In this document: piece after piece, positions 9,411-49,895 of the stretch
Position numbering within the stretch: position 1 is the first letter of the stretch
How the letters are laid out: every line of letters begins with the position of its first letter
IMG/VR virus record: IMGVR_UViG_3300035698_014126
Span: 1 to 53,760 of that record
Reading direction: 5' to 3' (one strand)
DNA from: a virus
Length of the DNA stretch: 53,760 bases
Program-made: the position numbers and the translations under genes
The notes under the pieces: generated by a model
Database searches by the model: none
The model's input: only the letters and a program-made list of their open reading frames with translations
What the model was told of the DNA's origin: nothing

Positions 9411-9658
9411 TACTCCATCTTAAATAACGTATTCAATGGCTTTCCGGTGTCCGCATCATATCCCGGCATCCATTCGTCATTATTTCCGTTTATATCGTCC
9501 ATGGGTCGGATTTTAAAAGTTAAAGGATTAAGGTTGCGGTATCTCCAACTTAATGAAATATCCCCTGCTGTTCCGGTTTCAAGTGGAAGTGTTGGTATAG
9601 AATCATATTTATAAAAAATACCGAATTGCCTGGAATTTTTAGAATTTGGGTTTTTCAT
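9407..9658 (-). CDS. hypothetical protein (83 aa)
   Basis: An 83-residue protein with no recognisable domain, beta-rich in the centre (GDISLSWRYRNLNPLTFKI). A GGGGGG ribosome site precedes its ATG; its start overlaps the HTH gene stop and its own stop overlaps the peptidase start, so it is translationally coupled to both neighbours. Confidence 0.6.
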   Translation of the reverse strand: MKNPNSKNSRQFGIFYKYDSIPTLPLETGTAGDISLSWRYRNLNPLTFKIRPMDDINGNNDEWMPGYDADTGKPLNTLFKMEY

Positions 9659-9876
9659 TTTTTATTCCCCCCACTAAACTTTCTCAAATATATATCAAAC
9701 ATTCCAACATAATTTAGCCACAGCAACACCCTAAGCAACCGATAAGGCCCTGCCGTGATACCTTGTTCTTCTCGTTCCCATTTCAACCATGTACCCCGCG
9801 CCACGCCCATAGCCTTTGCCATTTTTGTCTGGGTGAGGTTCAGGGTTTCGCGGGCTTGTTTTAGGTTTATTTTCAT
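9655..9876 (-). CDS. XRE/Cro-type helix-turn-helix regulator
   Basis: A 73-residue protein. Residues 3-38 (LKQARETLNLTQTKMAKAMG then VARGTWLKWEREEQGI) are a textbook XRE HTH: turn after LTQ, recognition helix ARGTWLKWE. The short C-terminus lacks a dimerisation or peptidase domain, so it resembles Cro more than CI. It is in the leftward operon below a consensus promoter and next to a divergent promoter pair, so autoregulation or switching between the two directions is likely. Confidence 0.85.
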   Translation of the reverse strand: MKINLKQARETLNLTQTKMAKAMGVARGTWLKWEREEQGITAGPYRLLRVLLWLNYVGMFDIYLRKFSGGNKK

Positions 9877-9923
9877 TTTTGTATTATTCCTTTGTGGGGC
9901 CTTTCAGCCCCGGTTTGTTTGGT

Positions 9924-10097
9924 TTATGACCAGTTTAACTCTGTGAGTTTTACAAGGCCCTCATATGCATCAGTGTCACGGACTTCAGCATGTTTTGGAG
10001 TTAACCGGATAATTGTTCCATAATTTTTAATGCTGGAATATTTTCCGTCAAACCATTCAACCTGATCACCTACTTTAAACTGTAATTTTGTTTTCAT
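9924..10097 (-). CDS. small SH3/KOW-like beta protein (57 aa)
   Basis: A 57-residue protein starting MKTKLQFKVGDQVEWFDG with GTIIRLTPKHAEVRD, a short beta-barrel pattern. The ATG at 10097 has GGGGGAG five bases upstream; the longer frame from 10142 would begin at the predicted transcription start. It is the first gene of the leftward operon. A 5-bp GC hairpin (9896-9911) separates it from the HTH gene. Confidence 0.7.
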   Translation of the reverse strand: MKTKLQFKVGDQVEWFDGKYSSIKNYGTIIRLTPKHAEVRDTDAYEGLVKLTELNWS

Positions 10098-10142
10098 GTT
10101 TTCTCCCCCTATTTTATGTGTGTATGTTTTTTCCATGCTCAT

Positions 10143-10171
10143 ACTATAGTCCCTATCATATACAATGTCAA
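10143..10171 (-). promoter_or_regulatory. leftward consensus promoter for the regulatory operon
   Basis: Read on the - strand, TTGACA (10171-10166) and TATAGT (10148-10143) are separated by exactly 17 bases. It lies 46 bases upstream of the first gene start at 10097. The 58 bases between this promoter and the rightward one are AT-rich and probably carry operators. Confidence 0.8.
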
Positions 10172-10229
10172 GGGGTAAATCACATTTATTTTAAAATAAT
10201 TCATATTTATTTTTATTAATTGTTTTTTC

Positions 10230-10258
10230 TTGACAAATAATTTAATCGTATTTATAAT
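10230..10258 (+). promoter_or_regulatory. perfect sigma-70 promoter reading the structured RNA
   Basis: TTGACA at 10230-10235 and TATAAT at 10253-10258 with exactly 17 bases between them match the housekeeping consensus fully. The expected transcription start near 10265 lies about ten bases before the closing helix of the structured RNA. Confidence 0.85.
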
Positions 10259-10332
10259 ATATATAGTTTGTGTATTTTGAGCATGGGTTCCCCAGGACGG
10301 ATGACATGGGAACATCTAGCCCGACACCCGCA

Positions 10333-10385
10333 AGGGTCGTCTGATGAGTCGAAAGACGAAACGTGACCGCGTAGCGTGGAACCCT
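10333..10385 (+). ncRNA. hammerhead-ribozyme-like core (type I arrangement)
   Basis: CTGATGA (10341-10347), stem II GTC-GAAA-GAC (10348-10357) and GAAA (10358-10361) match the hammerhead catalytic core exactly. Stem III would be ACGT/GCGT (10361-10364 with 10369-10372), giving a GTA cleavage triplet and predicted cleavage after A10373. Stem I would be CGT/GCG (10338-10340 with 10374-10376) then AGGGT/ACCCT (10333-10337 with 10381-10385) around a four-base bulge. Stems I and III are short and competing pairings exist, so activity is a prediction. Confidence 0.6.
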
Positions 10386-10470
10386 CCCAGTCGGGGAATA
10401 ACTGAGGGTCTAGGCCGTCCACCCCCGCTCAAAATGCATAAATATAAAATCATACCCAATACCTGACAAT

Positions 10471-10506
10471 AAAAAGCATCGTTCATTAATTTGTTCGGTG
10501 CTTTTT
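10471..10506 (+). terminator. intrinsic terminator after the structured RNA
   Basis: AAAAAGCATCG (10471-10481) pairs with CGGTGCTTTTT (10496-10506) over 11 bp including one wobble, followed by U-rich sequence. It closes the RNA unit 36 bases after its outer helix. The A-run on the left arm makes it potentially bidirectional. Confidence 0.8.
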
Positions 10507-10622
10507 ATGTTTATTTTTATATATTTATTCCATATTCTAATCAAAACACTTGTAATTATCCAAATTTTGTGTCAATAATATTATTATTTATTGTTTTTTT
10601 TGTTATATGAATATGAGGTAAT

Positions 10623-11402
10623 ATGGATGTGACTTCTAAAATTTGTTCTATGTGTGGAAGAATAACACCAGCACATATTGATTATTTTCAAAATAGAAAA
10701 GATTCAAAAGATGGGTTAAGAGCAAATTGTATGAAGTGTACTCAGAGTATAAATAAAGTCAAATATATAAATAATAGAAACCAGATACTTGAGAGAGTAA
10801 AGAAATATAATTTAAAAAATAAAGAAAAAGTAGAAATCTATCAGATAAAATATCGGGAAAAGAATAAAGAGAATCTAAAAAAACATTATAAAAATTATCA
10901 AAAAGAAAACAAAATTAGGATTGCAGAATACAAGAGCGATTATTATCAAAAAAATAAAACCAGGATTAATAATTATTGTAAAAAGTATTGGAATATTTCA
11001 GAAAATAAAATACGTAAAAGTAAACAGAAGAGATCGAGATATCGGAATGATTCATTATATAGATTAAATTATATGATGTCTAATACAATAAGACTTTCAT
11101 TAAAGAATGGATCAAAAAATGGTCAGCATTGGGAAACCCTTGTTGATTTTACGATTGAAGAATTATCAAGCAAGTTAAAACATTCTATCCCAAAAGGATA
11201 TACGTGGGATGATTTTATGAGTGGAAATCTTGAATTAGATCATATAAACCCGATATCTAAACATTCTTACACAAAGCCAAATGATGGTGATTTCAAAAAT
11301 TGCTGGAGTTTGTCTAATTTTCAATTGCTTCCCGCTATGGAAAATAAAATAAAAAGCAATAAACTAAAAAAACCTTTACAAATGGGGCTTGTCTTTGGAT
11401 AA
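10623..11402 (+). CDS. HNH endonuclease with zinc ribbon and Lys/Asn-rich helical repeats
   Basis: A 259-residue protein. The N-terminal CSMCGRITPA and CMKC (residues 8-40) form a zinc ribbon. Residues 45-125 are a charged helical array with repeated YQKENK/YYQKNK-like units. The C-terminal nuclease part has LELDHINPISKHS, DFKNCWSLSNFQLL and ENKIKSNK, the HNH core. GAGG lies four bases before the start. It sits between the control region and terminase. Two further genes (17664, 29174) share the architecture. Confidence 0.8.
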   Translation: MDVTSKICSMCGRITPAHIDYFQNRKDSKDGLRANCMKCTQSINKVKYINNRNQILERVKKYNLKNKEKVEIYQIKYREKNKENLKKHYKNYQKENKIRIAEYKSDYYQKNKTRINNYCKKYWNISENKIRKSKQKRSRYRNDSLYRLNYMMSNTIRLSLKNGSKNGQHWETLVDFTIEELSSKLKHSIPKGYTWDDFMSGNLELDHINPISKHSYTKPNDGDFKNCWSLSNFQLLPAMENKIKSNKLKKPLQMGLVFG

Positions 11403-11445
11403 CAAAAAAAATAGCTTAATAGTTGAAGGAAGTTGAACTATAAAT

Positions 11446-11808
11446 ATGATTATAACAGTTAAACAGATAGAAGATGCACTCAGAAAAAATGGCGGATTTG
11501 TAACCAGAGCAGCGAAAACTCTTGGGGTATCATATCAAGCTATATATAAACGTATGCAAAAAAATAAAAAGTTATGGGATATAAAAACAGAGATAGAAGA
11601 ATCATATCTTGACTTGGCAGAATCAAAATTATTAACAAAGATGGATGAAGGTCATTTTGGATCATTGTGTTTTTATTTAAAATGCAAAGGCAAAAAGCGT
11701 GGCTACATTGAAAACCAACAGGTTAATGATAATCAAGATGTTAAACCACAGCCGGTTAAAATAGAGTTTGTGGCTGTTGATGGTAGGGTAATAAAAAATG
11801 CGAGTTGA
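11446..11808 (+). CDS. terS: terminase small subunit
   Basis: A 120-residue protein. Residues 12-42 (GGFVTRAAKTLGVSYQAIYK) are a helix-turn-helix that would recognise the packaging site. A central helical oligomerisation region follows, then a beta-like tail. It overlaps the large terminase gene by 11 bases, the standard order for DNA packaging. The short N-terminal HTH type (Fis-like) is usual for phages with this terminase. Confidence 0.8.
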   Translation: MIITVKQIEDALRKNGGFVTRAAKTLGVSYQAIYKRMQKNKKLWDIKTEIEESYLDLAESKLLTKMDEGHFGSLCFYLKCKGKKRGYIENQQVNDNQDVKPQPVKIEFVAVDGRVIKNAS

Positions 11809-49819: not shown

Positions 49820-49895
49820 TGGAAGCCGGTGCAGAGATTCGAACCTGCATAGTCACCGTCAAAGGGTGATGTCCTACCTATTGGACGAACCGGCT
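49820..49895 (-). tRNA. tRNA-Gln (anticodon TTG)
   Basis: On the - strand: 7-bp acceptor AGCCGGT/ACCGGCT, D-arm GTCC/GGAC, anticodon arm TCACC-CTTTGAC-GGTGA giving anticodon TTG, T-arm around GGTTCGAATC, and an encoded CCA end (49820-49822). The T-stem is irregular: a simple count leaves a loop of eight or an A-C mismatch. It is the only complete tRNA seen, between leftward small genes. Confidence 0.9.

Follow-up and report, generated by a model that had tools for sequence, protein, structure and literature searches.

A phage non-coding RNA with two interlocked halves and an optional hammerhead ribozyme, from an apparently undescribed class

The RNA described here is encoded between positions 10230 and 10507 of a viral DNA stretch of 53,760 nucleotides (IMG/VR record IMGVR_UViG_3300035698_014126, referred to as the window), and is one member of a widespread class of phage non-coding RNAs that has apparently gone undescribed. 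Its core of about 100 nt consists of two similar halves with pseudo-twofold symmetry, a structure and a class that, as read from the sequences, are well supported. The favoured reading, held with somewhat better than even confidence, is that of a stand-alone, trans-acting phage RNA of a new class, often self-cleaving, horizontally exchanged and probably directed at the host. The class combines a compact, strongly covarying fold, apparently undescribed and found in phages of many bacterial phyla, E. coli prophages included, with a natural circular permutation of a non-coding RNA and the gain and loss of a ribozyme. It also gives phage hammerhead ribozymes a concrete RNA to belong to, and the members in Mycobacterium phage Gaia, Arthrobacter phage Constance and E. 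coli prophages bring its function within direct experimental reach.

The RNA gene and its two-half core

An earlier note on this DNA had described a self-contained structured RNA gene, with a perfect promoter, nested helices, a terminator and no open reading frame. The promoter is as claimed, with TTGACA at 10230-10235 and TATAAT at 10253-10258 separated by a 17-nt spacer, and is the sole 12/12 consensus match within 9600-11500. No open reading frame of at least 60 amino acids overlaps 10143-10622. The 281-nt stretch has a folding energy of -87.7 kcal/mol as against -67.6 when shuffled (z -4.07, with 0 of 200 shuffles as good). The idea of a self-contained structured gene holds up. The proposed terminator is only partly upheld: a hairpin at about 10470-10507 is present (fold z -5.6), with GTTTATTTTTA directly after it, but its role as a terminator is plausible only, because a consensus terminator scan did not list it. 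With its own promoter and a terminator-like hairpin, the window RNA is, on this reading of the DNA, a stand-alone RNA gene. A near-consensus divergent promoter (TTGACA-17-TATAGT, 10171-10143, minus strand) faces the HTH repressor gene at 9655-9876.

The 9-bp outer stem ATTTTGAGC/GCTCAAAAT (10274-10282/10427-10435, entirely Watson-Crick) and the 6-bp helices, among them GGACGG/CCGTCC (10295-10300/10415-10420), are also present, but the helices are not simply nested: four of 6 bp form two pseudoknots. The features of the gene, with what each assignment is based on, are as follows.

10230-10258, plus strand: sigma-70 promoter TTGACA-17-TATAAT (12/12 consensus match)
10274-10282, plus strand: outer stem, 5' strand, partner 10427-10435 (sequence; outer-stem pairing of N-order relatives)
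10281-10286, plus strand: start element of half A, XCGUGG, GCAUGG in the window with X=G (motif common to 120 non-redundant members)
10287-10292, plus strand: P1A 5' strand GUUCCC, partner 10308-10313 (family covariation)
10295-10300, plus strand: P2 5' strand GGACGG in loop A, partner 10415-10420, in a pseudoknot with P1A (covariation)
10308-10313, plus strand: P1A 3' strand GGGAAC (family covariation)
10314-10325, plus strand: tail A, AUCUAG followed by CCCGAC, the P3 5' strand with partner 10390-10395 (covariation)
10326-10337, plus strand: linker hairpin ACCC-GCAA-GGGU, found in the window member (sequence)
10338-10340, plus strand: hammerhead stem I 3' strand CGU, partner 10374-10376, one G-U (family stem I pairing)
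10341-10347, plus strand: hammerhead core CUGAUGA (sequence; CUGANGA in 95 hammerhead-bearing members)
10348-10357, plus strand: hammerhead stem II, GUC-GAAA-GAC (sequence; stem II varies between members)
10358-10363, plus strand: GAAA and stem III 5' strand, GAAACG (GAAA[CU] in 94/95 members)
10370-10373, plus strand: stem III 3' strand CGU and cleavage-site A (NUH triplet in 95/95 members)
10374-10380, plus strand: start element of half B, XCGYGGA, here GCGUGGA, its GCG doubling as hammerhead stem I (family motif)
10381-10386, plus strand: P1B 5' strand ACCCUC, partner 10404-10409 (family covariation)
10390-10403, plus strand: loop B, GUCGGG (P3 3' strand), then GAAUAACU; conserved GGGGAAUAACU (covariation)
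10404-10409, plus strand: P1B 3' strand GAGGGU (family covariation)
10410-10420, plus strand: tail B, ending in CCGUCC, the P2 3' strand (family covariation)
10427-10435, plus strand: outer stem, 3' strand (sequence; outer-stem pairing of N-order relatives)
10470-10507, plus strand: terminator-like hairpin and U-rich tail (fold z -5.6; absent from the terminator scan)

Each half is composed of the element XCGYGG, a 6-bp hairpin (P1A or P1B) and a tail, and each hairpin loop pairs with the tail of the opposite half. P1A, P1B, P2 and P3 are all present in the window, each with 6 Watson-Crick pairs. Since P1A crosses P2 and P1B crosses P3, the core would form two interlocked pseudoknots with an approximate twofold symmetry.

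To place the helices in the family as a whole, conserved sequence motifs and not complementarity served as the guide; the control consisted of 3' strands re-dealt among members. P1A then gives 5.68 of 6 pairs against 4.01 shuffled (z 23.6), P1B 5.90 of 6 against 4.11 (z 22) and the variable part of P3 2.95 of 3 against 2.04 (z 19.5), while the longest pairing run of P2 is 7.92 against 4.67 (z 31). The covariation score, taken over all four helices in a 41-sequence alignment, is 0.673, compared with 0.185 when shuffled and at most 0.174 when slid. The outer stem closes many members with half A first, with a mean longest run of 9.47 bp as opposed to 5.85 in cross-paired controls. Compensatory changes in homologues had been set beforehand as a refutation test, and the helices do covary. 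The first reading had missed the hammerhead core at 10341-10373, together with the pseudoknot helices 10287-10292/10308-10313, 10320-10325/10390-10395 and 10381-10386/10404-10409, which go with 10295-10300/10415-10420.

The two halves are further linked by the base denoted X, which is the same in half A and half B in 117 of 120 members, although G, C, U and A are all seen at this position. In hammerhead-bearing members (identity in 92 of 95) the X of half B takes part in stem I pairing. Members without an intact hammerhead nevertheless retain the identity (25 of 25, where 39% would be expected) and have no complementary cis partner; pairing of X with a cis complement was considered and set aside, as no position qualifies among these members. 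That the two halves share their X hints at a twofold-symmetric partner, and we infer that the same thing may read both halves, most simply the identical subunits of a symmetric partner.

The hammerhead ribozyme inside the RNA

The middle region of the window RNA (10338-10376) contains a full hammerhead core, CUGAUGA-GUC(GAAA)GAC-GAAAC, at 10341-10362, in which CUGANGA and GAAA are joined by stem II (10341-10361). Its blocks run CUGANGA, stem II, GAAA, closed stem III, NUH and stem I, the order of a type I hammerhead. Stem III is ACG/CGU (10361-10363/10370-10372), the NUH triplet is GUA (10371-10373), placing the predicted cut at 10373^10374, and stem I, CGU/GCG (10338-10340/10374-10376), has only 3 bp including one G-U pair. 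Across the family stem I forms 3.82 of 4 pairs as against 3.14 when shuffled. On an IMG/VR contig (L003, 8984-9005) there is a hammerhead core identical to that of the window but with no match to the two-half core model, which makes it a different setting for a hammerhead.

Of 120 members, 95 carry the hammerhead, a class assigned by the CUGANGA motif plus a GAAA. As these two motifs served to class the members and the NUH triplet was not used for selection, NUH and the stems provide independent tests; NUH is found in 95 of 95 and GAAA[CU] in 94 of 95. The other 25 lack an intact hammerhead but have an intact core; in them tail A either runs on to half B directly, across a few nucleotides, or is connected to it by a short hairpin or by a degenerate ribozyme such as the UUGAUAA of phage Gaia. 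It is because these members keep the whole core that the core is taken as the conserved unit. As the ribozyme core and the NUH site are conserved across the hammerhead-bearing members, the prediction from the consensus is that the window transcript would cleave itself between A10373 and G10374. The ribozyme is probably an accessory for nicking or end-making, with the core as the working part.

A purely cis-acting role, in which the hammerhead cuts long phage transcripts such as tRNA arrays and late mRNAs and the core does no more than fold the ribozyme or shield the ends so produced, is considered unlikely. Such processing is proposed for hammerheads flanking prophage genes in PMC3088659, and many members are indeed found within tRNA arrays or late operons, on the strand of these. 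However, the 25 of 120 members without an intact hammerhead preserve both the full core and the X identity, and the window RNA has a promoter and terminator-like hairpin of its own.

It is quite unlikely that the hammerhead-like motif is a non-cleaving structural relic within a plain structured small RNA or riboswitch-like element. Stem I of the window is weak, and a permissive search with Rfam Hammerhead_1 (RF00163) scores it at 13.7 bits, below the gathering score of 34, which is a model cut-off and not a defining feature of hammerhead ribozymes; 20 further loci, almost all of them with the core, likewise give no hammerhead hit. Degenerate hammerheads also occur in relatives such as L178 and L369. 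A relic would nevertheless be expected to drift, and the unselected NUH triplet and the GAAA[CU] block have not done so.

Relatives, permutation and exchange between phages

Distant BLAST matches outside long genes were obtained in the Arthrobacter phages Karkharias and Constance, in Microcystis phage Mwe-JY26 and later in mycobacteriophages, and further members came from pattern scans of IMG/VR and bacterial contigs. After the removal of near-duplicates there are 120 phage and prophage relatives, from phages of Actinobacteria, Cyanobacteria and Enterobacteria and from contigs of other phyla. The earlier suggestion of a phage small RNA holds up. A profile built from 40 relatives with the window left out gives two collinear matches in the window, 10372-10420 (E 1.5e-8) and 10284-10330 (E 4.3e-5). 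Two members without an intact hammerhead (L312 and L316) are on contigs labelled archaeon and Patescibacteria, which may reflect binning errors or phages of such hosts.

The RNA exists in two circularly permuted gene orders, termed N, in which half A comes first as in the window, and P, in which the hammerhead and half B lead and a hairpin, often CCTAAG...CTTAGG-like, connects to half A. The 120 divide into 82 of order N with a hammerhead, 25 of order N without an intact one and 13 of order P, the last being truly 12 since the L087 row wrongly pairs two tandem copies. In L087 the RNA is present twice in tandem, with core positions 1341 and 1515 on the minus strand, about 175 nt apart. The joints of the P members L109, L119 and L174 are unrelated, hinting at more than one origin of order P.

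The P-order RNA of E. coli EC6622 belongs to a P22-like prophage, where the antiterminator gene and the holin gene flank it, and that of the T7-like Enterobacter phage SDFMU_EhYP (Autographiviridae) lies between capsid and tail genes. The two are 95.7% identical over 207 nt, and this cassette is the only nucleotide similarity between the SDFMU_EhYP and EC6622 prophage genomes. Phage lambda matches the EC6622 prophage on either side of the cassette, where its own short insert differs. Mobility of this one cassette between unrelated phages is thereby shown at the level of genome comparison. The closing stem ACAACAGGTAAGAGCA...TGCTCTTTCC recurs in many phages of this kind around 73 inserts that differ from one another and measure 35 to 176 nt, some of them bearing a tRNA T-arm-like motif. 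In lambdoid phages (lambda itself, L384, 991-1063, as well as L385 and L390-L503) the interval from Q to the holin gene carries a fixed stem, ACAACAGGTAAGAGCA...TGCTCTTTCCGTTGT, which across 102 cases surrounds these 73 inserts; the P-order RNA is among them, and some others resemble pieces of tRNA.

It is very unlikely that the RNA is a selfish cassette that spreads among phages without benefit to them. Its occurrence as a nearly identical unit in two phages with no other common DNA, as one of many inserts within a fixed lambdoid stem and as tandem copies in L087 would all fit such a reading. The RNA encodes no mobility function, though, it is not regularly accompanied by HNH or endonuclease VII genes, and long-term conservation with compensatory change requires selection on RNA function.

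The genomic settings of the relatives are diverse, including tRNA clusters, places among structural genes or beside lysis genes, all in unrelated phages. For 25% of members there is a tRNA no more than 300 nt away, as compared with 10% of random places on the same contigs, and the tRNAs within 500 nt of members are on the strand of the RNA in 101 of 101 cases. The window contains a tRNA-Gln (anticodon TTG) at 49820-49895 on the minus strand, distant from the RNA. The RNA itself has the divergent HTH repressor gene on one side and, on the other, an endonuclease VII-like gene, after which come terminase and portal genes. In the neighbourhoods of the relatives no constant protein neighbour or co-occurring gene was found that would hint at a target. 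Control of an early/late switch, raised in the earlier note, finds no support in these varied settings.

Place among known RNAs and possible mode of action

A covariance search against Rfam 15 (4227 families) agrees with the earlier impression that the fold belongs to no known class: no family reached its gathering score in the window or in 27 related loci, where only tRNAs were matched. No published description of the core was found in the open-access literature covered, where a search on RNAs of the lambdoid late region was equally without result. The core is rated as a candidate new RNA class, and its ribozyme module as one of a known kind; the claim of novelty rests on the core, because members without a ribozyme show that the ribozyme does not define the class.

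The module resembles type I hammerheads (RF00163; PMC3088659) in its block order, open stem I and phage or prophage setting, but it is here an optional insert in a covarying core of 100 nt, an arrangement not found reported for hammerheads in the literature covered. The phage hammerheads of Perreault et al. 2011 (PMC3088659) were considered as possible members; the genomes concerned, PaP3 and Bcep176, are without any member of the class. ROOL and GOLLD (PMC12286853) are likewise non-coding RNAs of phages and prophages, elaborately folded and frequently close to tRNA islands, but measure some 600-800 nt or more and have other folds, and no Rfam match to either was obtained here. The theta ribozymes of gut phages (PMC10879173) are also self-cleaving and linked to phage tRNA genes, although their fold is HDV-like and no HDV-type Rfam match was seen in the window or the loci tested. 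The type-SGC permuted hammerheads and HRIMA-1 (PMC10085705) also have a hammerhead within a pseudoknotted RNA that shows permutation. In those, however, the ribozyme core itself has its blocks in a non-circularly changed order, whereas here the core keeps the classic type I order and the circular permutation concerns the RNA around it; that non-circular order is absent from the present members, which run CUGANGA, GAAA, NUH. The role of phage hammerhead ribozymes is still termed an open question in the literature covered (PMC6155905).

In the favoured trans-acting reading, transcription would start near 10265 and the RNA would cut itself between A10373 and G10374. Cleavage would leave two pieces that P2, P3 and the outer stem keep joined, half B beginning with a 5'-OH at X; the core would act as the working part and the hammerhead as its nicking or end-making module. 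The weakest step is the last, in which the RNA, in the course of infection, may target a host factor in trans, for counter-defence or host takeover; it is suggested because nearly the same RNA serves unrelated phages without a shared partner gene. Mobility and context point faintly to a host-directed role, and any specific function for the phage would be a guess. A broader proposal, offered tentatively and thought less likely than not, is that these RNAs represent a broad effector class of interlocked twofold design, often self-nicked, which binds a symmetric host factor and is swapped between unrelated phages as cassettes, the lambdoid stem being an exchangeable RNA slot.

A packaging or capsid-assembly RNA resembling phi29 pRNA is highly improbable, for although terminase and portal genes follow the RNA within 4 kb in the window and, of the 25 records in which a terminase was found, around 5 have it downstream at no more than about 3 kb, in most of these records it is far off or on the opposite strand, and members occur in unrelated phage families and deep within tRNA arrays. 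A partnership with HNH or endonuclease VII proteins, prompted by the window and the Arthrobacter phages, was discarded as not general among relatives. Transcription starting exactly at the X of half A was likewise rejected, a TATAAT box at that spacing being present in only a few members. In five of the relatives (L073, L103, L157, L019 and L328) a -10 box does lie just upstream of half A, from which the start would fall at about X.
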